IMG/VR virus record: IMGVR_UViG_3300033571_020201 | Span: 1-55,214 of that record | Strand: one strand, 5' to 3' | Length of the DNA stretch: 55,214 nucleotides | Origin: a virus | Notes under the pieces: model-generated | The model's database searches: none | The model's input: the letters and a program-made list of their open reading frames with translations, nothing else | Told to the model about the DNA's origin: nothing | Translations under genes and position numbers: made by a program | Part shown: positions 29,175 to 44,552 of the stretch, in pieces | Numbering within the stretch: position 1 is the stretch's first letter | Layout of the letters: each line of letters opens with the position of its first letter

Positions 29175-29215
29175 AAAAAACGCGCACAATTAATTGTGCG
29201 CGTTTTTTTTTTTTT
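29175..29215. terminator. Bidirectional Rho-independent terminator between queD and phoH
   Basis: A 34-base perfect palindrome (29175-29208) with a GC-rich core CGCGCACAAT, flanked by A-run and T-run (to 29215). It would end both converging transcripts. Confidence 0.9.
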
Positions 29216-32540: not shown

Positions 32541-33143
32541 GTGAAAAATCATAAAATTTTAGTACTCAATAAATTCTACTTTCCTATTGGTGTCGAAGGT
32601 ATTGAAAAAACCTTCGGTAATATTTTTTCTGGATCAGTAGTACCATTAGACGTCAGTTACGAGACTGACGATCATGGAGATATTTTGTTTGAGAATATCG
32701 AATACTTTGCAGCAGTAAAAGGTGCAGAGGAATGGATTAAACTTCCTATCAGACCATACGACGAATACTTGCAAACTGCAAGAGGTCCTGTTCGAGTTCC
32801 TACTGTAGTAATCTGCGCTAATTACGATAAGATCATCTACAATAAGGTTCAGTTTCCTACTAAATCTAACATCTATAAGAGAGATAACTTCACTTGCGTT
32901 TACACAGGCAAAAAACTATCTAAAGATGAGCTTAGTATCGACCACGTAATACCTAAAAGTAAGGGTGGTAATGATACTTGGGAAAATCTTGTGACGTGTG
33001 ATCGTATGTTAAACTCTAAAAAAGGTAGTTTAACTCTCGCTGAAGCTGGCTTGAAGTTAGCGTACAAGCCATACAAACCTAAAAACGGAATGATCTTCGA
33101 TTCTTTCAAAGAAGAGTGGTCTGCGTTCTTGAAAAATGTATAA
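32541..33143 (+). CDS. HNH endonuclease
   Basis: 200 residues, GTG start. The N-terminal half resembles the domain seen in HNH proteins of cyanobacteria and phages (VLNKFYFPIGVEG). The nuclease core NFTCVYTGKKLSKDELSIDHVIPKSKGGNDTWENLVTCD (about 115-155) has the catalytic DH and the N, but only a partial Cys set. The last 27 residues (ending EEWSAFLKNV) are repeated nearly exactly at the end of the 37046-37324 gene, marking a recombination joint. TATAAT lies 5 bases upstream without a clear -35. Confidence 0.8.
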   Translation: MKNHKILVLNKFYFPIGVEGIEKTFGNIFSGSVVPLDVSYETDDHGDILFENIEYFAAVKGAEEWIKLPIRPYDEYLQTARGPVRVPTVVICANYDKIIYNKVQFPTKSNIYKRDNFTCVYTGKKLSKDELSIDHVIPKSKGGNDTWENLVTCDRMLNSKKGSLTLAEAGLKLAYKPYKPKNGMIFDSFKEEWSAFLKNV

Positions 33144-33175
33144 TGTAGTGTATATATTATACATATGAGAATTGC
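33065..33175 (+). repeat. 111-base direct repeat, copy A
   Basis: It matches 37246-37356 with about six mismatches by eye and no gap. It covers the end of the HNH gene, the spacer and the first codons of the truncated kinase. Confidence 0.85.
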
Positions 33176-33389
33176 GTTTAGTGGAACAGGGAACAGCGGT
33201 AAGACAACACTAGTAAAAAACTTTCTGGCTGTTTGGCCTAACTACAAGCAGCCAGAAAAAACTTATAGAGATCTTCTAAAAGAAGGTCAACTGAAGCATA
33301 GTAAAGATACTATTCCTAACGAAAAGAAGAGGGCTATGATGGAAGATCAATTTAAAGTTTATTATGATAAATGGGAAGCTAATAAGTAA
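33165..33389 (+). pseudogene. Truncated copy of P-loop kinase gene
   Basis: 74 residues. The first 50 match the 243-residue kinase at 37346-38077 (MRIA.SGT...GKTTL.KNFLAVW, EKTYRD.LKE). After KHSKDT the sequence diverges and soon stops. The Walker A is kept but the rest of the fold is lost, so it is probably a remnant left by recombination. Confidence 0.75.
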
Positions 33390-33411
33390 GCATACGCCGG
33401 ACTCATCGAGG

Positions 33412-34005
33412 ATGTTTCATATAGTCATCCCAACATATGGCGGAGGACCCAAGCTAGAAGTTATAGTCAATTGTTTTCTTGCACAAACTTGTCAAGATTA
33501 CCATATATCTATTGTGTCAGATGGTCCAGAGCAAGAGACAGCCAAGCAGCTTGAGAGATATTATGATATAGAAAATTTTTCCTATTACCATTTAGATAAG
33601 AGGTATAACGACTGGGGACATACCCCGAGGGAGTTTGGTATATATCAATCAAATTGCGAGTTTACATTAATGTCTGGGTATGATAACTACTACGTTCCAA
33701 CATTTATAGAGGAGTTTAAAAAAGCTGCAAGGTTTACATCGAATGTAAAATTTATATTTTGTGACATGATACATAACCATGTTATAAATGGATCTTCATA
33801 TAACGGGCATATAGACTCTGTGTTAGAATCTGGGCGTATTGATATAGGAAACTTTGCGACCAATACAGATTTATTAAAACTTGTAGGTTACAAATCTAGA
33901 TCTTACGCAGCTGACTGGGATCTGGTAGAATCTCTCATACCCTACTTGAAGCAACCAGAGAATAACATAATAAAAATACCAAAAACACTATACATACACA
34001 ATTAA
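33412..34005 (+). CDS. Glycosyltransferase family 2
   Basis: About 197 residues, starting MFHIVIPTYGGGPKLEV. The frame is open from 33364, but the ATG at 33412 gives the usual GT2 start. IPTYGG, HISIVSDGPEQET, YYHLDKRYNDWGHTPREFG and MSGYDNYY fit the GT-A fold, although the DxD motif is replaced by YDN. First gene of the glycosylation island. Confidence 0.75.
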   Translation: MFHIVIPTYGGGPKLEVIVNCFLAQTCQDYHISIVSDGPEQETAKQLERYYDIENFSYYHLDKRYNDWGHTPREFGIYQSNCEFTLMSGYDNYYVPTFIEEFKKAARFTSNVKFIFCDMIHNHVINGSSYNGHIDSVLESGRIDIGNFATNTDLLKLVGYKSRSYAADWDLVESLIPYLKQPENNIIKIPKTLYIHN

Positions 34006-34637
34006 TGAAAACAGATATAATAGTTGCGAGATACAATGAAAATGTGGAGTGGCTTAATTCTTTAAACTCAAAAGCACAGATTTTTTTGTATAATAAAGGT
34101 CAACATAGCGATGATAGTATACAGCTGCCAAACATAGGCAGAGAAGCGCATACATATATACATCATATAATTAGTAATTATAATAATTTAAGCGATTATA
34201 ATATTTTTTGTCAAGGTGACCCATTTCCACATTGCGGTAATTTTATAAGCCATGTTAATAGTGTTGTGGATGGAGCTGAGTGTGTAAATGAATTTAAATG
34301 GTTAACTAACGGCCTATATAACACACTAAATAACGGCGGTCCTTATCATACTGTTGACTTGCGAATAGATGAATATCTAAGCAGGATAGGAATGGGACAT
34401 ATAGATGTATCGGGTGTATTTCAATTCGGTCCGGGAGCGCAATTCATCGCAACAGGTGAGTGTCTGCGTAAGAGACCTGTAGAATTTTATATGGGTATAA
34501 TACAAACGTTTGACCTCACTACGTACGATCAGAGATTTAGAGATAGTGATTATATTGAGGGTAGAAGTGTAGAACAATTCTACCATATTGCATGTATTCT
34601 AGAGAGAGTGTGGGAGAAAATTTTAACGGTTTATTAA
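34005..34637 (+). CDS. DUF3431-type glycosyltransferase-like protein
   Basis: 210 residues. DIIVARYNENVEWL, YNKG, LPNIGREAHTYIHHIISNYNNL and NIFCQGDPFPHC are the hallmark segments of DUF3431, linked to cell-surface glycan genes. It shares one base with the previous stop and is probably co-translated with the fusion gene downstream. Confidence 0.75.
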   Translation: MKTDIIVARYNENVEWLNSLNSKAQIFLYNKGQHSDDSIQLPNIGREAHTYIHHIISNYNNLSDYNIFCQGDPFPHCGNFISHVNSVVDGAECVNEFKWLTNGLYNTLNNGGPYHTVDLRIDEYLSRIGMGHIDVSGVFQFGPGAQFIATGECLRKRPVEFYMGIIQTFDLTTYDQRFRDSDYIEGRSVEQFYHIACILERVWEKILTVY

Positions 34638-34645
34638 ATAGATTT

Positions 34646-36460
34646 ATGCGTAAAATAATAGTTACCCCAGCTGGTAGAGAGAGGTATTTGAAAATTCTAC
34701 TAACATATTTACAGAGATATAGAGATGAATTTGATAGGTGGGATATATGGCTCAATACGGTAAATCAGAGTGATATCGATTATATAACAGCCTTAGAATC
34801 TGAATATGACTTTATCAAGATTAAATATCCAAGTGTACAAATAGATGGTAGTTCTTCAGTAGCTATCAGCTCATCAATAGCTAGTTTTTTTGTGGATTAT
34901 ATATCACCTGATGAGGTTTATGTTAGGTTAGATGATGATATTGTTTTTATTGAGAAAGGATCACTTGCGAAATTATTTAATCGGCGTATTGAAGACACGG
35001 AGTCGTTTTTATTGTATGGGAATATAATAAATAATGCGATACTGACACACATCCAACAGCGCGCAGGTAATCTAAAAATAGACTATGGGTGTTCAGGATA
35101 TACATGCATGTGTAATATTGGGTGGAATACACCAGAATTTGCTGTAAATGTTCATAGAGACTTCTTGGATAGCTATGAGAGGGGTAATAATTTTAAAATT
35201 CCTGATTGGATCTTATATGATTTTGAGCGTGTATCAATCAACGTTATATCATGGCGTGGGGATGAGTTTGCTAAATTTGGTGGTGTAGTTGATGTGGATG
35301 AAGAACAGTGGCTATCTGTAAATAAACCAAGGGAGATTGGAAGGTTTAATAGAGTAGTAGGTGATACTCTATTCTCACACTACGCTTTTTATCCTCAGAG
35401 AGAGCTTATGGATTCAACAGATATTCTCAAACAATATGAAGAGCTTGCTAATACAAATAGAATGAAAATTAAGATAGTTGGTAGTGGTCTTTCAGGAGCT
35501 GTGGCAGCATATTTACTCAAAAGTGCAGGTCATTCGGTAAAAATGTTTGAGAGTAGAAATCATATAGGAGGTAATTGTTATGATAGTAACATGTGTGGTA
35601 CGACGGTACATAATTATGGTCCTCATATATTTCATACGGATGATGATGAGGTATTTAAATTGCTATCTAAATTTACTGAATGGGAGGATTTTGAATATAA
35701 GCCAATTGGTAACACTAAATTAGGTCCCATATCACTACCCTATAGTAGGAAGTCCGTTCAACAACTTGGAAGGGAGTTAACACAAGAAGAAATCATTGAA
35801 AATATCTTCGTTGATTATTCTGAAAAACAGTGGGGAACAGATTTTGATAATATTCCAAAATCGATAACAAACAGAATTCCAAAAACCAAAGATAGTGAAG
35901 ATCCAACATGGTTCGAGGGCCAAAAATATCAATGTATACCCAAGGAGGGTTATACTAAGATGTTCGAAAAGATGTTATCGGGTATAGATATTAAGCTCGG
36001 GTGCGGTCGCGATGAATGGAAAGATGGAGACTGTGATCTTGTAATATTCACAGGTAGGGTCGATGAGTTTTACAATTTTAAATTTGGAGAGTTGCCGTAT
36101 AGATCATTAACTTTCACGCACGAGGTAACATCTAAAAAACAAGATGTATGTGTTTATAATGAATGTAATAAGACAAATGACTATACAAGAAAATATGATC
36201 ATAGCTTTTTTACATCTAACCATAAGGGGTTAACGGTTATAACAAAAGAATTTTCTAAAGAATGTGAAGATGGAGATGTTCCATTTTACCCTATTCCGTG
36301 GGGTGATGGTATGAAAATGTATGCAAAATACAAAGAGCTTGCAGATCAGGAAGATGGTGTGTTATTTATAGGTAGGCTTGCTACATATACATATTTGGAT
36401 ATGTGGATGGCTGTTAAGCAAGCAATTTTAAAGTTGAGAAATAAAGGTCTTATACTATAA
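34646..36460 (+). CDS. Glycosyltransferase / UDP-galactopyranose mutase fusion
   Basis: About 604 residues. The frame opens at 34592, but ATG 34646, 8 bases after the previous stop, is preferred. Residues 1-270 are GT-A-like (VTPAGRERYLKILLTYLQRY, DEVYVRLDDDIVFIEKGSLAKLF with a DDD motif near 100). From residue 273 a complete UDP-galactopyranose mutase begins: GSGLSGAVAA (FAD-binding), FESRNHIGGNCYD, YGPHIFHTDDDEVF, YSEKQWG, YQCIPKEGYTKMFEKML, GRLATYTYLDM. The mutase makes UDP-galactofuranose; the attached transferase may use it at once. I know of no phage protein with this order. Confidence 0.85.
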   Translation: MRKIIVTPAGRERYLKILLTYLQRYRDEFDRWDIWLNTVNQSDIDYITALESEYDFIKIKYPSVQIDGSSSVAISSSIASFFVDYISPDEVYVRLDDDIVFIEKGSLAKLFNRRIEDTESFLLYGNIINNAILTHIQQRAGNLKIDYGCSGYTCMCNIGWNTPEFAVNVHRDFLDSYERGNNFKIPDWILYDFERVSINVISWRGDEFAKFGGVVDVDEEQWLSVNKPREIGRFNRVVGDTLFSHYAFYPQRELMDSTDILKQYEELANTNRMKIKIVGSGLSGAVAAYLLKSAGHSVKMFESRNHIGGNCYDSNMCGTTVHNYGPHIFHTDDDEVFKLLSKFTEWEDFEYKPIGNTKLGPISLPYSRKSVQQLGRELTQEEIIENIFVDYSEKQWGTDFDNIPKSITNRIPKTKDSEDPTWFEGQKYQCIPKEGYTKMFEKMLSGIDIKLGCGRDEWKDGDCDLVIFTGRVDEFYNFKFGELPYRSLTFTHEVTSKKQDVCVYNECNKTNDYTRKYDHSFFTSNHKGLTVITKEFSKECEDGDVPFYPIPWGDGMKMYAKYKELADQEDGVLFIGRLATYTYLDMWMAVKQAILKLRNKGLIL

Positions 36461-36461
36461 T
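36434..36461 (+). promoter_or_regulatory. Early/middle promoter for DUF366 copy 1
   Basis: TTGAGA (36434-36439), 16-base spacer, TATAAT (36456-36461), 6 bases to ATG. Confidence 0.55.
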
Positions 36462-36467
36462 ACACTT

Positions 36468-37049
36468 ATGATTATTACTCAGCAAGTATATAATGGTCCG
36501 TTAATTAAGGAAAGATTCGCTTATAGATTCCTTAACAAGAAAGTTAATCCAGTTGGTGACATCGTTGCATTTAGAGCTCCGATGTATGTAAGTGATGACC
36601 TAATCGATCTCGAAGATTCTCTGTCTAAAGATTTTATCTATAGTGAGGATGCTATTAACTTCTGTTGGGAGATTCCTAACCTAGATAAATTCGGCGCGGT
36701 TGCGTTTCAGCGTTGGTTCAATACCAATATTGCGACTATTTTATCTAGATATATCGACAAGCCTATCAATATGAAAGGTGATGACTTGATGGTTCGTGAT
36801 AGTTTTGTTGGTTCAGATAAGGTTGTTAGAGAAGTAGGTAAATGCAGTGTATCTATTACATACTCCAAAGATAATGTAGCTATTGGACATACAGGTATCA
36901 ATATTAGAGCAGGTAAACAAGCGCCAGGCTTTGCATACTCTACCAATCTTAGCGATGAACTTGTTAATCATTTTATGGAAGAAGTAATTGTTACATTCTA
37001 TAAAGAGATTAACGATATCTTCGTCGCAACTTCTAAAGTCATTGTATGA
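36468..37049 (+). CDS. DUF366 family protein, copy 1
   Basis: 193 residues. FRAPMYVSDDLIDLEDSL, MKGDDLMVRD and KCSVSITYSKDNVAIGHTGINI match DUF366, a family of unknown function that, as I recall, is related to the biotin/lipoate ligase fold. It shares the same overall sequence with 43594-44175 (a paralogue), and both are followed with a 4-base overlap by a gp62-like gene. It has its own early promoter. Confidence 0.75.
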   Translation: MIITQQVYNGPLIKERFAYRFLNKKVNPVGDIVAFRAPMYVSDDLIDLEDSLSKDFIYSEDAINFCWEIPNLDKFGAVAFQRWFNTNIATILSRYIDKPINMKGDDLMVRDSFVGSDKVVREVGKCSVSITYSKDNVAIGHTGINIRAGKQAPGFAYSTNLSDELVNHFMEEVIVTFYKEINDIFVATSKVIV

Positions 37050-37324
37050 ATTTCTTCGAAACTCTCAACTTCCTCTTCTACAAGAAGAGGGAGAAGCAGC
37101 TAGATGTAGATATTGAGACTGCTAGTGCGTTCAGTTCATATATGACGAACAGATGGTGGTCTTTTTACGACAAGGATTCAGCCTTATTCACTAATAACGT
37201 TCTCAATAGATTGGCGAGTGTGTTTGATGATAGGTCTGAGCAGTTCAAGCCATACAAACCTAAAAACGGAATGATTTTCGATTCTTTCAAAGAAGAGTGG
37301 TCTGCGTTCTTGAAAAATGTCTAA
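37046..37324 (+). pseudogene. Truncated gp62-like gene fused to the HNH C-terminus
   Basis: 92 residues. Residues 1-66 match the start of the gp62-like protein at 44172-44552 (MNFF, MTNRWWSF.DK, LN...VFDDRS). The final 27 residues are the C-terminal tail of the HNH protein at 32541-33143. The basic segment that follows in the intact copy is missing, so clamp-loader function is unlikely. Confidence 0.75.
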
Positions 37325-37356
37325 TATGGTGTATATATTAGATATATGAGAATTGC
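37246..37356 (+). repeat. 111-base direct repeat, copy B
   Basis: Partner of 33065-33175. It joins the gp62-like remnant to the HNH tail, spacer and start of the intact kinase. Confidence 0.85.
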
Positions 37357-38077
37357 TATATCCGGAACTGCTTGTACAGGTAAGACAACACTTTTAAAAA
37401 ACTTTCTAGCTGTCTGGGATAAGTACACGACGCCAGAGAAGACTTATCGAGATTTTCTCAAAGAAAATAATCTTTCGCATTCATCTGAAACAACAAAAGA
37501 CACTCAGTGGTCTATTCTCAACTTTATGGTTGATGAGATGCAAAAGACTGATAAGGATTCAATGGTGATTTATGATAGGTGTCCTCTCGATAACCTCGCA
37601 TATACTCTATGGGCCTTCGGCAAAGGTATTGATGGTTTTGATAAACAATTTGTAGATAATTGTATCGCGATTACAAAAGAGTCTATGAGACACTTAGATA
37701 TAATCTTTTTGTTGCGATATGACCCATCTATTCCTATTGAAGATGATGGAGTGAGAGATGCAGATAAAGAGTATATTATTGAAATTGATAATATATTCGG
37801 TGCATTGTATGAGCAGTATAGGCAGAATTATGATGCAGATATTTTCTTCCCAGTGAACGATTCACCTGCTCTTATAGATCTACCTACTAGTATACAAGGT
37901 AGAATTGATACAATCGCAGAGTATGTAACTACTGATGGAGGCTTCTATGGTGAAGAAAGTTCAATCTTTGCTCCAGATAAGCTAGACGAACTCGAAGCAC
38001 TTGTTAAACAGCAAGCAGCTGCTCTTCAGCAAGAAAAAGAGGAAAAAGAGTTGTGGAGTAAGTTCGGTCTCAAATAA
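37346..38077 (+). CDS. P-loop kinase/AAA_28-like protein
   Basis: 243 residues. Walker A SGTACTGKTTL at residues 6-16, then VIYDRCPLDNLAYTLWAFG (a DR lid/substrate segment as in nucleotide kinases and NadR-type ATPases) and IIFLLRYDP. The C-terminus is a coiled coil (residues 210-243). A nucleotide or small-molecule kinase is likely; the substrate is unknown. Its truncated relative is at 33165-33389. Confidence 0.7.
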   Translation: MRIAISGTACTGKTTLLKNFLAVWDKYTTPEKTYRDFLKENNLSHSSETTKDTQWSILNFMVDEMQKTDKDSMVIYDRCPLDNLAYTLWAFGKGIDGFDKQFVDNCIAITKESMRHLDIIFLLRYDPSIPIEDDGVRDADKEYIIEIDNIFGALYEQYRQNYDADIFFPVNDSPALIDLPTSIQGRIDTIAEYVTTDGGFYGEESSIFAPDKLDELEALVKQQAAALQQEKEEKELWSKFGLK

Positions 38078-38829
38078 TGAGAGTATTAGTTGTCTGTCCT
38101 ACATATGGTAGACTGCACTACTTAGGTAGAATGCTAGCTGGATTCCTGTCTCAGACGCATCCTAATAAAGAGCTTGTTTTTATTAACGACAATAAAAATG
38201 TTACACTGCAATGCAACTATAGTAATGTACATTGTATCAATCTAGATAAGAGAATTATATTACCTGATAAGCGTAATATAGGAGTTGCGTTTGGGTCATA
38301 TGATATCTATATGCCACATGACGATGATGATATATTCTTACCTAGTCGAATTGCTCACCGTGTTAAAATACACACAACAGAAGGTATTGAATCAACTGTT
38401 GATACAACCGGGTATGTAGTGTATCAAGGGAAGTTTGATAAAAGCAAAAGTATGAGTGTTACGTTTTGCTCATATACACGTGATGCGTTTTTTAAGATTG
38501 GAGGTTATCATCATCATCAAAATATTGGTGATGATCAAGAGTTTTATAATAAGTTGCGCGAAAATCCTAAGCATAAAGTGCTTGATGCAACATATGATGC
38601 TGTTTATAACTATAGTGGGGTAAACTATCATGCAACCTTTGCAAAACAAGAAGATGTTGATGAGATTGCGTATAATCAATTAGTTGATATGGATTTATTA
38701 GGAAAAACGTTTACAATAATACCAGACTATACAGAATACAAAAAGTTTATTGATCTTGAGAGACGATACGCTCAAACAAATGAGCCAGTCGCAGTAAAGT
38801 TTAATAGTGATGGTACAATAATAATATGA
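38077..38829 (+). CDS. Glycosyltransferase family 2
   Basis: 250 residues. VVCPTYGRLHYLGRMLAGFLSQTHPNKELVFINDN is a classic GT2 N-terminus; IYMPHDDDDIFLPSRI holds the metal-binding Asp cluster near residue 88, and FKIGGYHHHQNIGDDQEFYNKL the acceptor-side ED/DD motif. It overlaps both neighbours by a few bases. Confidence 0.85.
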   Translation: MRVLVVCPTYGRLHYLGRMLAGFLSQTHPNKELVFINDNKNVTLQCNYSNVHCINLDKRIILPDKRNIGVAFGSYDIYMPHDDDDIFLPSRIAHRVKIHTTEGIESTVDTTGYVVYQGKFDKSKSMSVTFCSYTRDAFFKIGGYHHHQNIGDDQEFYNKLRENPKHKVLDATYDAVYNYSGVNYHATFAKQEDVDEIAYNQLVDMDLLGKTFTIIPDYTEYKKFIDLERRYAQTNEPVAVKFNSDGTIII

Positions 38830-39662
38830 GCGAGAAAAAAGAAAAGATCGGAGTAGGTATCATTACATGCAACCGTAAGGATTACCTAGTTAATTTGTTA
38901 GAGTCTATAGCTAACCGTAATGACCTCGAGCTCGTCGTTGTTAACGATGGCGACCCTCTCGAAATCCCTGGTTGGAATTATTATGTCATTAATAATGAGA
39001 CTAATCTCGGTGTAGGTAAATCTAAGAATAAAGCAATGCAACACCTTCTTGATAAGGGATGCGATTACATCTTTATTATAGAGGATGATATGATTGTGTT
39101 AGATGATACAATCTTTGAAAAATACATTCAAGCAAGCAAGGTTAGCGGTATACAGCATTTTAACTACGGTCCCGGGTCACCTTTTAACCGTAAGCAGACA
39201 ATCTCGAATTTTGATTTGCACAACAGACACCTGCTCGATCAGCACTCAGAACCTAATCCTAAGTTAGTTATAGAATACGGTAACGATATAAAAGTCTCAT
39301 TATTTGAGCATACTGTTGCTATGTTTAGTTTCTTTACTCGTAAGGTCTTAGAAGAAGTCGGCTTAATTGACGAAAATTATTATAACGCTTGGGAACATGT
39401 AGACCATACATATTGCATTATAAAGGCTGGTTACCATCCACCGTTTTGGTGGTTTGCAGACATTTATGAAAGTCACAAGTATCTTACTGAAGCACCAGGA
39501 GCTATAGATAATTCATCTATAGCGAACAAGACCGAACAGTGGGAGAAGAATGTATATGGTGGTAGAGAGATTTATAAACAGAAACACGGTCACTATCCGA
39601 ATGAGCCGCCATATGTAACTAAAGATCAAGTTATACAAAAATTAAAAGACATAAGAAAGTGA
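38826..39662 (+). CDS. Glycosyltransferase family 2
   Basis: 278 residues. GIITCNRKDYLVNLLESI, LVVVNDG, YIFIIEDDMIVLDDTIFEKY (EDD motif near 87) and LIDENYYNAWEHVDHTYCIIKAGY are characteristic. It overlaps the previous gene by 4 bases and the next by 4 bases through GTGA. Confidence 0.85.
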   Translation: MSEKKEKIGVGIITCNRKDYLVNLLESIANRNDLELVVVNDGDPLEIPGWNYYVINNETNLGVGKSKNKAMQHLLDKGCDYIFIIEDDMIVLDDTIFEKYIQASKVSGIQHFNYGPGSPFNRKQTISNFDLHNRHLLDQHSEPNPKLVIEYGNDIKVSLFEHTVAMFSFFTRKVLEEVGLIDENYYNAWEHVDHTYCIIKAGYHPPFWWFADIYESHKYLTEAPGAIDNSSIANKTEQWEKNVYGGREIYKQKHGHYPNEPPYVTKDQVIQKLKDIRK

Positions 39663-40438
39663 TAGGTGAAATAGTAACATATGGTAAAGGATATACTTTA
39701 ACACCTGGAGTTAAAGTTTTTATTAGAAGTGCGGTAAAGACAGGTAACAAAGTTACAATTATTGGCTCGCAGTTAGGTAATGATATAAAAGATTTTGCAG
39801 AGGAGTATGGAGTTGCAATCTTTGATAGTGAAATACTTTCAAAAAAATATAATGTAAACGAATCACTTTCACCATACACTCTTAAAGTAATTTATTTTTA
39901 TCTATACTGCAAGCATGTATGTACATCTGAAAATGTCTATTTGTGTGATTTTACCGATATATATTTTCAGAAAAATGTCTTTGAATTAGTACAGAATGAT
40001 AAGACGTATGTAACTAGTGAAAATAAAATAATTGGTTCATGTCAAACAAATGCAACATGGATTAATATTTGTTATAATCACGATATCTTTAACTTGTTAA
40101 GAAAACACGAGATATTAAATGGCGGTAGTATTTTAGGAAAGCGAGAAGCTTGTATGTACTTGCTTGATGAAATGTGTAAAGATATGGGTAGTATAATTGC
40201 ACGTGTAGGCAATTATCAAAATATAGATCAAGCCTCTATGAATAAAGTTGTTTATTTTGATCAGTACAGTTATAACATTCTTAACAGTGGTCAAATATTG
40301 AACGCAGCTCATTCAATGGATTCGCACGTATCGTGTGTCGGTGATGTTTATACTATTGATGGTATAACACCGTTTGTTCTCCATCAGCAAGATGTTATTA
40401 AAAGTGTAGAAGGTAAATTGTATGATAGATTCGGTTGA
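39659..40438 (+). CDS. Glycosyltransferase-like protein (GT-A, uncertain family)
   Basis: 259 residues, GTG start coupled to the preceding stop. NVYLCDFTDIYFQKNVFELV near residue 100 has a D-x-x-D metal-binding pattern like that of GT8/nucleotide-diphospho-sugar transferases; NGGSILGKREACMYLLDEM follows as the acceptor segment. Context in the island supports the call. Confidence 0.65.
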   Translation: MIGEIVTYGKGYTLTPGVKVFIRSAVKTGNKVTIIGSQLGNDIKDFAEEYGVAIFDSEILSKKYNVNESLSPYTLKVIYFYLYCKHVCTSENVYLCDFTDIYFQKNVFELVQNDKTYVTSENKIIGSCQTNATWINICYNHDIFNLLRKHEILNGGSILGKREACMYLLDEMCKDMGSIIARVGNYQNIDQASMNKVVYFDQYSYNILNSGQILNAAHSMDSHVSCVGDVYTIDGITPFVLHQQDVIKSVEGKLYDRFG

Positions 40439-41165
40439 TGTTATAATTTTATCGTTAGTTACGAACGATGATTCGTTTAAAAAGACTCAGAAATGTATAG
40501 ATTCATATATTGATACTGCTGATGAATTAATTAGAAAAATCTATGTTGTAGAATCAAATGAAAATTTTTCTGGTAATTATAACCAGAAAAAGGTCGAGGT
40601 TATAAAGCCAGGTGTGGAATTTAACTATAATAAGTTTTACAATATAGCTTTAGAAAAGTGTACCGCGCAGTATGTAATGGGTCCTAATAACGATATAGAG
40701 ATCCAACCTAATTGTTTGCAAACTATTGTAAAAGAGTTTGAACAAAATAAAGAACTGTCTTCGATTTGTCCTATTGATAGAGACTGGCATAGACATACAA
40801 CGATGTACTTGCCTAATAATGAAAAACTATATTATGGATACGAGGTATCTCTTCATATGTTTGGCTGTGTATTTTGTTGTAGACGAAGCGTTTTTGAAAA
40901 GATCGGTTACCTAGACGAGGCATTTTATTTCTTCTATCAAGATAATGATTATGCTATGTGCCTAGAACGCAATAACTTATTACACGGTGTTCATACTGGG
41001 GCTCGTGTTAAACATATATCCGGCTTTTCAAATGAGAATGCGCCAGCGCGTTGCAAGTATACATCCGAAAATATGAATGCACAGGGAGATATTTTAGCTA
41101 AAAAGTGGAACAGCGAACCATTTAAATCTGGAGGTTATAAGCAATATAGAGATTATAAATTATGA
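40422..41165 (+). CDS. Glycosyltransferase family 2
   Basis: 247 residues. DVIILSLVTNDDSFKKTQKCIDSY, a YVMGPNNDIEIQPNCLQTIVKEF segment with NDIE in place of DxD, and a FEKIGYLDEAFYFFYQDNDYAMCLERN acceptor motif. It overlaps neighbours on both sides. Confidence 0.8.
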   Translation: MIDSVDVIILSLVTNDDSFKKTQKCIDSYIDTADELIRKIYVVESNENFSGNYNQKKVEVIKPGVEFNYNKFYNIALEKCTAQYVMGPNNDIEIQPNCLQTIVKEFEQNKELSSICPIDRDWHRHTTMYLPNNEKLYYGYEVSLHMFGCVFCCRRSVFEKIGYLDEAFYFFYQDNDYAMCLERNNLLHGVHTGARVKHISGFSNENAPARCKYTSENMNAQGDILAKKWNSEPFKSGGYKQYRDYKL

Positions 41166-42112
41166 AAAAAGTAGCATTTCACTCTAATCAACTAGGTATA
41201 AGAGGAACAGAGGTAGCACTGTATGATTACGCGTGTGGTAACGAAGATGTATTGAACAACAAATCTTATATCATATCAGATAAAAATAAAGACATGGTAG
41301 CTCTTCCAAAGTTTCGTGCTCGGTTTGAAGGTAGAATATTTCTGTATGATGATTTCGCAGAAGTTGAGGACTTCTTAAAACAAGAAGGTATCGAATATAT
41401 TTACTATATAAAAGCTGGTGACAATGATGGTAAGTTAGTAAGTAATGCAACAAATTTAGTTCATGCTGTATTTCAAAATTATACGCCTCATGGAGAAAAA
41501 TATGTATATATAGCGCAATGGTTAGCTAAAAAAATGTGCGGTGATAGTAGTAATTATGTTCCACATATTATATCTTTACCTGCACAGACAGCAAATATTA
41601 GAGAACTATTGAATATACCAGATGATGCAACGGTACTAGGTCGTCATGGCGGTTTAAATGAATTTGATTTTGAGTTTACAAAGCGTGCAATAGCAGAATC
41701 TCTTAATCTTCGCGGTGATTTGTATTATATTTTTATGAATACTACGCCATTTATTAACCATGACCGCGTAAAATTCATACAAGGTACGCACAATTTGCAG
41801 AATAAATCAAACTTTATTTGCTCGTGCGATGCTATGATACACGGAAGACAGCATGGCGAAACATTCGGTTTAGCGATAGGTGAATTTTTATATCACGATA
41901 AACCCATAATACTGTGTAAACATGGCTACGATCAAGGTCACCACTCTATGGTGCATACAGGCGGTCATTGGTATAGTGATTACGATAGCTGCTTACGTCA
42001 ACTGCTAAATTTTAGGAAAAATAATTTCGGGCCTGGTACCTACAAAAAATTAGTAAGTGAATATACAGCAGAAAACGTTATGAATAGTTTCAATTTAAAA
42101 TTTTTAGGGTAA
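41162..42112 (+). CDS. GT-B glycosyltransferase (GT4-like)
   Basis: 316 residues. VAFHSNQLGIRGTEVALYDYA is a GT4-like acceptor loop. VLGRHGGLNEFDFEF marks the second domain, and AMIHGRQHGETFGLAIGEFLYHDKPIIL is the donor-binding E-x7-E motif near residue 235. It shares 4 bases with the preceding gene. Confidence 0.8.
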   Translation: MKKVAFHSNQLGIRGTEVALYDYACGNEDVLNNKSYIISDKNKDMVALPKFRARFEGRIFLYDDFAEVEDFLKQEGIEYIYYIKAGDNDGKLVSNATNLVHAVFQNYTPHGEKYVYIAQWLAKKMCGDSSNYVPHIISLPAQTANIRELLNIPDDATVLGRHGGLNEFDFEFTKRAIAESLNLRGDLYYIFMNTTPFINHDRVKFIQGTHNLQNKSNFICSCDAMIHGRQHGETFGLAIGEFLYHDKPIILCKHGYDQGHHSMVHTGGHWYSDYDSCLRQLLNFRKNNFGPGTYKKLVSEYTAENVMNSFNLKFLG

Positions 42113-42137
42113 TATATAAAAATGAAAAATACTATAT

Positions 42138-42995
42138 TTGACAAAGGGAGACCACGTCGATTATCAAAATGATTGTTTATTGATAGGTTTAAAAGAAATG
42201 TTCGGTAGTGATGTCGTTGATTATAATAAGCAATTGCATAACTACGAATCGTATGACGAGCAAATGGCTAAGCAGTTGTATGGTATGGGTATGTCTGTCG
42301 CCAGAGTTTTACCTGACCTCGAGGTTGATAGAACAGATATTACATCTAAGATCAGAAATCATTATTACGATTATGTTATATACGGATCAATCTGGCGCTG
42401 TAATGATCACATCGATGAGATATTAAAATATTATAAGCCTCATGAGGTTATCGCTGTTGATGGAGAAGATGAGATTAATATACACAAGTCATTTAACGGG
42501 GGAGTTCAATACTTTAAAAGAGAGTTAGTGTATAGTCACGATAGATTAAACCCCATATCATTCAGTATACCTACATCAAAGGTTAATTTTAATAAAAGTA
42601 AAATTAAAGATAAGGCATATATAACCCCGCTCGACAGGTCTACATATATTTATAATAACGAGAAGGACTACTATAATGATTACAATGAAGCTAGATTCGG
42701 TGTAGCCGTTAAAAAGGCAGGGTGGGATTGTATGAGACACTATGAAATTATGTGTAATGGTTGCATACCATTATTTTTAGATATTGATAAGTGCCCTAGT
42801 TTAACTATGACAGATTTTCCTAAACAACTATGCCTGGATGCTTTACGCTTATATGCTAAGGAAGGACCTGTCAAAGCTTACGAAGAATTAATAGATAAAT
42901 TCGAAAATCACTTTAATCAGAATAATACAACGCTTAGAGTTGCAGAAAAATTTGTTAGAAAGATACAAGAATATGGAAAGATACGACATAATTAA
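42138..42995 (+). CDS. Putative glycosyltransferase, possibly frameshifted at its start
   Basis: 285 residues from a TTG at 42138. RFGVAVKKAGWDCMRHYEIMCNGCIPLFLDIDKCPSLTMTDFPKQL resembles the late, substrate-binding part of exostosin-like or GT-B sugar transferases. An ATG at 42122 opens another frame that reads MKNTIFDKG and then diverges; removing one G from the run at 42146-42148 joins it to this frame as MKNTIFDKGDHVDYQND. The natural start is therefore probably 42122. Confidence 0.65.
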   Translation: MTKGDHVDYQNDCLLIGLKEMFGSDVVDYNKQLHNYESYDEQMAKQLYGMGMSVARVLPDLEVDRTDITSKIRNHYYDYVIYGSIWRCNDHIDEILKYYKPHEVIAVDGEDEINIHKSFNGGVQYFKRELVYSHDRLNPISFSIPTSKVNFNKSKIKDKAYITPLDRSTYIYNNEKDYYNDYNEARFGVAVKKAGWDCMRHYEIMCNGCIPLFLDIDKCPSLTMTDFPKQLCLDALRLYAKEGPVKAYEELIDKFENHFNQNNTTLRVAEKFVRKIQEYGKIRHN

Positions 42996-43545
42996 TACAC
43001 TGATACGTAAGTATGGTTATAAATCATACTTAGAAATAGGTACACAACACGGCAATGCGTTTACTAAGATTGACATACCTCACAAAGTTTGCGTTGGCCC
43101 TGTTAAACGCTACGATCAACTGACATATGAAATGACATCAGATGAATTTTTCGCTAATAATAAAGAAAAATTCGATATTATATTCGTTGATGGGTTGCAT
43201 CTGGAAGAACAATGTTCGTTAGATATAAAAAATTCTTTAAAAGTGTTAAACAAAAACGGTACAATTGTTGTGCATGATTGTTTGCCGCACTGTGAAGAAT
43301 TTATTAAAGTTCAGTGGAATGGTACTGTCTTTAGGTCTATTATTGATTTAAGATATAATAACCCGAATGTTGTAATAGAAGTAGTTGATACAGACAATGG
43401 ATGCGGGGTCATAAGAAGAGGTAAACAGAGCTTGTATAATGCAGTAGATATTAATACAGCAAAAACTTACAGCTTTTTTGCAAATAATAGAGACGAACTA
43501 ATGAATGTAATATCTACTGACGAGTTTTTATTAAAATACTCATAA
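42973..43545 (+). CDS. SAM-dependent methyltransferase (class I)
   Basis: About 190 residues from ATG 42973; the frame opens at 42940. YKSYLEIGTQHGNAFTKI is the SAM-binding motif I, KFDIIFVDGLHLEEQC the motif II acidic/HLEEQ region typical of Methyltransf_24, and NGTIVVHDCLPHCEEF follows. Such genes often modify sugars or small molecules in glycan clusters. It is the last gene of the island. Confidence 0.8.
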   Translation: MERYDIINTLIRKYGYKSYLEIGTQHGNAFTKIDIPHKVCVGPVKRYDQLTYEMTSDEFFANNKEKFDIIFVDGLHLEEQCSLDIKNSLKVLNKNGTIVVHDCLPHCEEFIKVQWNGTVFRSIIDLRYNNPNVVIEVVDTDNGCGVIRRGKQSLYNAVDINTAKTYSFFANNRDELMNVISTDEFLLKYS

Positions 43546-43559
43546 GTAGTTAAAGTAGC

Positions 43560-43587
43560 TTGAAAAGTAATAATCGCATTATATTAT
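43560..43587 (+). promoter_or_regulatory. Early/middle promoter for DUF366 copy 2
   Basis: TTGAAA (43560-43565), 16-base spacer, TATTAT (43582-43587), 6 bases to ATG. Confidence 0.55.
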
Positions 43588-43593
43588 ATTGAT

Positions 43594-44175
43594 ATGATAA
43601 TTGAACAACCTATCTACAATGGAGATCTGATTCATAAACGCTTTGCTTATAAGTACTTTAAGAAAGATGTTGCACCTTGTGGTAATATCGTATCGTTTAG
43701 AGCGCCAATGTTTGTAAGTGACAATCTTATCGACCTCGAGGATCTACTAACTAAAGATTATATCTATAGTGATGATGCAGTTAATTTCTGCTGGGAGATT
43801 CCGAATATGTGCCCTGCTGGTGCTGTAGCATTTCAACGTCTTTTGAATACCGGTATTGCAAATATCCTTGCAGGTCTTATTAGAAAGCCTATTGAGATGA
43901 AGGGCGATGATTTGATGGTACACGATAAGTTTATTGGTTCAGATAAAACGGAACGCGAGGTTGGTAAAGTGAGTGTATCTATTACCTACTCAAAAGACGG
44001 TGTAGCTATTGGTCATACTGGAATTAATATTAATGCCGGTAAGAAAGCTCCTGGATTCGCATATAATACTCATCTAACTGACGAAGGCGTTAAAGAGCTT
44101 CAATTAGCAGTAATCGAGTATTTCAACCGTGAAGTTGCTGATATTTTTGTAGCCACGTCTAAGGTGATTGTATGA
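43594..44175 (+). CDS. DUF366 family protein, copy 2
   Basis: 193 residues, the same length as copy 1 and very similar throughout (FRAPMFVSDNLIDLEDLL, MKGDDLMVHD, KVSVSITYSKDGVAIGHTGINI). Both copies end in the same ATSKVIV and overlap the next gene by 4 bases. Function unknown. Confidence 0.75.
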   Translation: MIIEQPIYNGDLIHKRFAYKYFKKDVAPCGNIVSFRAPMFVSDNLIDLEDLLTKDYIYSDDAVNFCWEIPNMCPAGAVAFQRLLNTGIANILAGLIRKPIEMKGDDLMVHDKFIGSDKTEREVGKVSVSITYSKDGVAIGHTGININAGKKAPGFAYNTHLTDEGVKELQLAVIEYFNREVADIFVATSKVIV

Positions 44176-44552
44176 ACTTCTTTACATTAATACAGAACCT
44201 CTTATTTAAACCTGTAAAGAAAGACGATGTAACAGCTGAAGAAATTCAGCTGTTCGTCCCTTTTATGATTAATAGGTGGTTGTCATTTTCTGACAAGTCG
44301 AAAGCAGTATTTGTTAATCATACGCTCAATAAGTTTTCAGGGTTGTTTGATGATAAAGTAGAACTGTATAAGCTGTATGATAACCTAATTCCGAAATCAA
44401 GGTTTAAACGTATACAGTATGTTAAAAAGGTAAAGAAGGACGAAGAAGCTAAAACAGAGGATGAGCTACTTTTTATTCAAGCAAAAAATAACTGCTTATC
44501 TACAAGAGAGTTAAAAATGTATATGGCATTATCTGAAACTGCTTGTAAATAG
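44172..44552 (+). CDS. Putative clamp-loader small subunit, gp62-like
   Basis: 126 residues. FMINRWLSFSDKSKAVFVNHTLNK and YDNLIPKSRFKRIQYVKK match the conserved pattern of phage gp62-type proteins (FMVxxxLS...N, then L..P..KR). gp62 partners gp44 to load the gp45 clamp. T4 gp62 is longer (187), and gp44/gp45 are not in this window, so this is a family-level call. A broken paralogue is at 37046-37324. Confidence 0.55.
   Translation: MNFFTLIQNLLFKPVKKDDVTAEEIQLFVPFMINRWLSFSDKSKAVFVNHTLNKFSGLFDDKVELYKLYDNLIPKSRFKRIQYVKKVKKDEEAKTEDELLFIQAKNNCLSTRELKMYMALSETACK

Follow-up and report, generated by a model that had tools for sequence, protein, structure and literature searches.

How did a single phage genome come to hold two sets of the genes that flank its glycosylation island? 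The question arises in IMG/VR virus record IMGVR_UViG_3300033571_020201, whose 55,214 bases were analyzed whole and are called the window here, and more precisely in its region 32541-37356, which a preliminary description had read as a mosaic duplication. The portal protein of the window showed 27% identity over 89% with the T4-type portals of cultured phages (E 7e-45), and by this kinship we class the virus among the T4-like phages. Megablast of the studied stretch against cultured phages gave no match. The answer that we favor, with a probability of about 0.8, is that approximately 4.1 kb of a co-infecting phage of one lineage (B, near the uncultured relatives L001 and L172) were added between the HNH and kinase genes of a T4-like phage of another lineage (A). 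Judging by its alignments, lineage A is close to relative L081 on the left and to L082 on the right. The genes, reading frames and repeat copies given below for 32541-44552 lie on the plus strand.

Gene Order in the Relatives

Searches of IMG/VR gave 210 related places for DUF366 (80 loci kept), 8 for the HNH gene and 98 for the left kinase reading frame (80 kept). In these relatives, the order is constant, namely QueE, HNH, kinase, a variable glycosyltransferase island, DUF366, gp62 and gp31, each anchor being single-copy; in its fuller form, a DUF5856 protein follows QueE, the HNH gene is present in part of the clade, and the gp31-like gene is followed by two small genes and by the helicase, tail and portal genes. 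The syntenic core comprises QueE, the DUF5856 gene, HNH and kinase on the left, and DUF366, gp62, gp31, helicase and portal on the right. Among close relatives with an HNH gene, this gene always precedes the kinase; in part of the clade, it is absent or too diverged for detection. None of the 40 loci holding kinase, DUF366 and gp62 showed a doubled anchor (kinase, HNH, DUF366, gp62 or gp31), and the window, with its two anchor sets, is exceptional. The unduplicated HNH-kinase-DUF366-gp62 order that the preliminary description had predicted does exist, as it is seen whole in L082 and, for its left part, in L081. The islands of the relatives measure 3.3-9.9 kb and match the islands of the window at 0-57% by tblastx (46 loci); the anchors show 34-90% amino acid identity. 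With conserved flanks, variable content and a T4-like phage as carrier, the locus falls among the hypervariable islands of T4-like phages.

In the window, the backbone of lineage A is represented on the left by a complete HNH endonuclease-like gene (32541-33143; family matches PF13395/PF14279 in the profile search, PF13395 at 1e-10; phrog_16726, 4e-28; 93% amino acid identity to L081). On the right stand a complete P-loop kinase (37346-38077; PF13521, 8e-17; AAA_28/thymidylate kinase match; 89% to L081), a glycosyltransferase/methyltransferase island (38077-43545; PF00535, PF13578), which lies in the same place as the islands of the relatives and forms the second cassette, a second copy of DUF366 (43594-44175; 90% to L082) and a complete gp62-like gene (44172-44552; 89% to L082). 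Both DUF366 copies matched PF04017. The gp62 assignment is made at the level of PHROG 225 only, a profile found in 7 of the 10 relatives scanned (best E 7e-8); the window copies match it weakly (full copy, E 2e-4; cut copy, E 0.06). By this profile, the full copy would correspond to gp62, the small subunit of the T4 clamp loader. Also, the glycosyltransferase at 38077-38829, between the kinase and the gene starting at 38826, is missing from that place in L081, and a 46% homologue stands directly before gp62 in L085 and L086, which is another sign of cassette movement.

The Inserted Cassette

At each of its two ends, the inserted block (33306-37250) is of the B type. It carries a family 2 glycosyltransferase of donor type (33364-34005; PF00535, 1.6e-7; 82% amino acid and 79% nucleotide identity to L001), a DUF3431 protein (34005-34637; PF11913, 5e-15) for which no relative was found in IMG/VR, a fusion of a glycosyltransferase-like domain with a UDP-galactopyranose mutase or GLF (34592-36460; PF03275, 2e-54; phrog_4447, 4e-10), and the first copy of DUF366 (36468-37049; PF04017, 2.5e-19). 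The GLF-DUF366 block is common to the window and to L009, L011 and L026. The added genes may provide a further sugar on the virion, the DNA or the host surface, possibly galactofuranose via GLF. The G+C content and the third-position G+C did not clearly distinguish the insert from its neighbours, so that composition could neither date nor trace it. The glycosyltransferase-GLF fusion is in frame, and its matches in other phages start at about 35457-35537, near the start codon of the mutase; this fusion may represent a third seam.

DUF366 (PF04017) is itself a conserved gene, present in 210 uncultured phage loci and weakly similar to the solved structure 2DDZ (E 0.007). A tblastn search against 50,697 cultured phage records returned no match, and a literature search on DUF366 found no paper. 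In part of the clade (L056, L062, L066, L067, L079, L080), the gene directly follows those for QueC and a glutamine amidotransferase, and the window has FolE-, QueD-, QueE- and QueC-like genes together with a glutamine amidotransferase. DUF366 may take part in 7-deazaguanine metabolism. A perfect 34-nt inverted repeat (29175-29208), probably a two-way terminator, lies between the converging QueD-like and PhoH-like genes of the window.

Two Parental Lineages

The DUF366 tree placed copy 1 as sister to L001 (100/99) and copy 2 as sister to L082 (100/99), with copy 2 belonging to a clade of 24 rows (99/93) from which copy 1 is excluded. The gp62 genes gave the same grouping, the cut copy going with L001 and L172 and the full copy with L082. 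Over residues 1-70, the amino acid identity of the cut gp62 with L001 is 94%; over residues 30-70, it is 98% with L172, and in both of these relatives gp62 runs on normally beyond the segment shared with the window. At the nucleotide level, L001 matches the window at 33306-34005 (79%) and at 36425-37250 (81%), both matches ending at the seams, and the window at 37246-38078 matches L081 at 84%. On these comparisons, the two DUF366/gp62 sets come from different phage lineages and are not copies made in this genome. As DUF366 copy 1 is just 91% identical in amino acids to its counterpart in L001, the latter is a relative of the donor and not the donor. Also, the gene that stands between GTa and DUF366 is a different one in L001, and lineage B is thus at least partly mosaic; no single phage was identified as the B source of both the kinase start and the middle genes (DUF3431 and the GLF fusion).

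The Direct Repeat and the Two Seams

A 111-base repeat with about six mismatches had been reported at 33065 and 37246, and the count agrees with this: 33065-33175 and 37246-37356 are identical at 105 of 111 bases, with 77/79 in the HNH tail, 17/21 in the intergenic stretch and 11/11 in the first kinase bases. The direct repeat itself consists of the HNH 3′ end and the intergenic stretch (33065-33164), identical at 94 of 100 bases to the right copy (37246-37345), and its longest stretches without a mismatch measure 30 and 44 nt. The right copy is 93% identical to L081, and each copy has differences of its own. BLAST extended the similarity to 33062-33284 and 37243-37465 (84%, E 2e-64), far above chance, and the self-comparison of the window gave a second repeat, made of DUF366 and the gp62 start (36516-37056 and 43642-44182; 69%, E 2e-58). 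The two kinase starts are identical at 99 of 136 positions. The left one is closest to L101 and L103 (77%), ahead of the right copy (73%) and L081 (71%), and the nearest relative of the right one is L081 (82%). The kinase starts seem to resemble each other as orthologues from two lineages. The simplest account would be that the left kinase start arrived with the foreign block, and that the true duplicate, as it appears, is only about 79-100 bp of the lineage A HNH tail. A decayed in-house copy of the kinase was also considered, and was rejected because the left start is nearer to the alleles of other phages than to the right one.

The left reading frame (33165-33389) had been taken for a truncated kinase. 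The kinase start is indeed cut, its N-terminal 46-50 residues or so belonging to a different allele from that of the gene at 37346, but the frame closes with the C-terminal 26 residues or so of a glycosyltransferase of the L001 type, the alignment with L001 starting at 33306. The seam (33295-33320) lies in a short in-frame homology (D-T-x-P-x). At this place, the sequence is LKHSKDTTPDTQ in the kinase allele of L093 and of three identical loci, LKHSKDTIPNEKK in the window and QSYDTIPDEKK in the glycosyltransferase of L001, the latter gene (6823-7512 of L001) ending in YDTIPDEKKRVMMEDQFKVYYDKWKPEK. This three-way comparison places the change of parent inside a short in-frame match of 11/15 nt, a count made by eye from the sequences of L093 and L001.

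On the right, the reading frame at 37046-37324 joins donor gp62 residues 1-68, recognized by their amino acid identity to L001 and L172, in frame with the last 24 HNH residues, which bears out the earlier observation of a gp62-like copy cut and fused to the HNH tail. The seam (37244-37255) lies in a microhomology, CAAGC(T/C)ATAC, that donor gp62 and the HNH tail hold in the same frame. The sequences are TTCAAGCTATAC for the donor-type L172, TACAAGCCATAC for HNH and TTCAAGCCATAC for the window, with 9 of 10 bases common. A match of 9/10 or better occurs in just 10 of the 170,191 possible 10-nt pairings of gp62 with HNH, and because such pairings are so rare, the right seam was probably guided by this microhomology. 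Both fusions remain in frame to a natural stop, which two seams would reach by chance once in 9, and selection against frame disruption at the seams is possible but unproven. When 33144-37324 (one repeat copy and the insert) was dropped, the remaining sequence aligned with the HNH-kinase region of L081 over 1356 nt at 84% without gaps; thus, no backbone gene was broken by the insertion.

Origin of the Arrangement

T4 replicates in a recombination-dependent manner, and ectopic strand switching with return has been described (PMC3016281). In such replication, a lineage A end at the HNH gene and kinase start would invade the homologous place in B, and the B kinase start, the glycosylation genes, DUF366 and part of gp62 would be copied by this end. 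Return to A would then occur via a match of about 10 nt located some 80-100 nt upstream of the exit point, and this backward step would create the direct repeat of 79-100 bp. The remaining B kinase and the B genes before the glycosyltransferase end would have been lost through a second switch or a deletion, the loss of the B kinase being tolerated since the A kinase was intact. As a result, the sugar-modification island would be larger, and the backbone genes near the insertion point would all have stayed intact. These steps, the change at the left seam included, may have come in another order, and the arrangement is read from one assembled contig.

That the reading rests on a single metagenomic contig also makes one think of an assembly artefact, in which the reads of two co-occurring phages were joined as a chimeric contig, as metagenomes contain both parent types and the exact repeat runs of 30 and 44 nt could mislead a short-k assembler. 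However, the seams lie at imperfect parent matches of 10-15 nt, far below usual assembler overlaps, and both keep the reading frame; misassembly at the 44-nt repeat might re-pair HNH tail and kinase but could not create the seams, and the private differences of the repeat copies also speak against an artefact, which we regard as improbable. Even more doubtful is a tandem duplication made in this genome, from the HNH tail through kinase, glycosyltransferase and DUF366 to the gp62 start, followed by divergence and loss. Gene order alone would fit it, a junction of gp62 with the HNH tail would be expected, and the HNH tails are almost identical, but within about 100 nt the kinase starts differ by 27% and the adjoining HNH tail by 2.5%, and the two glycosyltransferase sets have no common repeat in the self-comparison. 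Moreover, neither DUF366 copy is the closest relative of the other in the tree; each is sister to a different relative, which contradicts the mutual kinship of duplicates, and the claim of a mosaic duplication of the phage's own genes had to be abandoned on this ground.

Phage HNH genes are often homing endonucleases, as is generally known, and one seam lies inside the HNH gene, so that HNH could be imagined to have cut the DNA of the other phage, a faulty homing repair then joining its tail to gp62. We consider this the least credible of the alternatives: the HNH gene occupies one fixed place in the close relatives having it, like a resident gene, no cut site or insertion polymorphism was seen at gp62, and the recombination machinery alone would be enough. 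The proposed addition of a lineage B cassette by template switching also bears on the earlier proposal that recombination had opened sites for glycosylation genes. Recombination did build the structure, but in the relatives that span the locus the island already lies between kinase and DUF366, and recombination therefore brought a second set of sugar genes and opened no sites.

Relation to Known Systems

The arrangement of the window belongs to the known modular exchange in the hypervariable region of T4-like phages, of which it is a well-preserved example and not a new system. In the hyperplastic regions of these phages, a conserved core flanks variable, swappable genes with a presumed role in adapting the phage to its host (PMC2984593). 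The window shares with them the conserved core around variable genes and a T4-like portal; its island, rich in sugar genes, lies between the kinase and DUF366-gp62. Unlike these regions, the window keeps both sets, with both seams readable. Replacement flexible genomic islands of aquatic bacteria, for which homologous recombination in the flanks and no hallmarks of illegitimate recombination were reported (PMC4033161), are similar in that glycosylation sets are exchanged between relatives via conserved flanks. However, those are replacements in cellular genomes, whereas in the window a phage gained genes by addition, and a short direct repeat and a seam at a microhomology are present. The modular shuffling that PeSL mediate in T4-type phages (Arbiol 2010; Comeau 2014; as cited in PMC4503421) resembles the present case, in the account given there, by a short repeated sequence between genes at the shuffling point. 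The present case differs from that account in that the seams of the window are in coding sequence and that the shared 21-nt A/T-rich intergenic stretch holds no conserved stem-loop. A PeSL cassette was rejected, as the folds of this stretch are weak and not conserved across the relatives.

When about 170 related loci were compared with themselves, none showed similar repeats flanking the anchors. IMG/VR yielded no further contig carrying one or the other seam, the arrangement being unique in the set, and exact IMG/VR searches with the right seam and with a 26-nt core of the HNH tail found nothing. It is conceivable, though unlikely in our view, that the kinase/HNH and DUF366-gp62 anchors serve the clade as points of template switching, by which whole cassettes are added to its glycosylation islands, and that recombination between the short repeats removes them again, in which case cassette number would be reversible and switchable.

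For annotation, the "truncated kinase" and the "gp62 fragment" should be regarded as recombination seams and not as genes. When phages exchange surface-sugar genes, as a rule only the finished mosaic is visible. In the window, the two seams and the two parent types are legible, which makes the exchange step, with its homologous exit, microhomology return and leftover repeat, testable.
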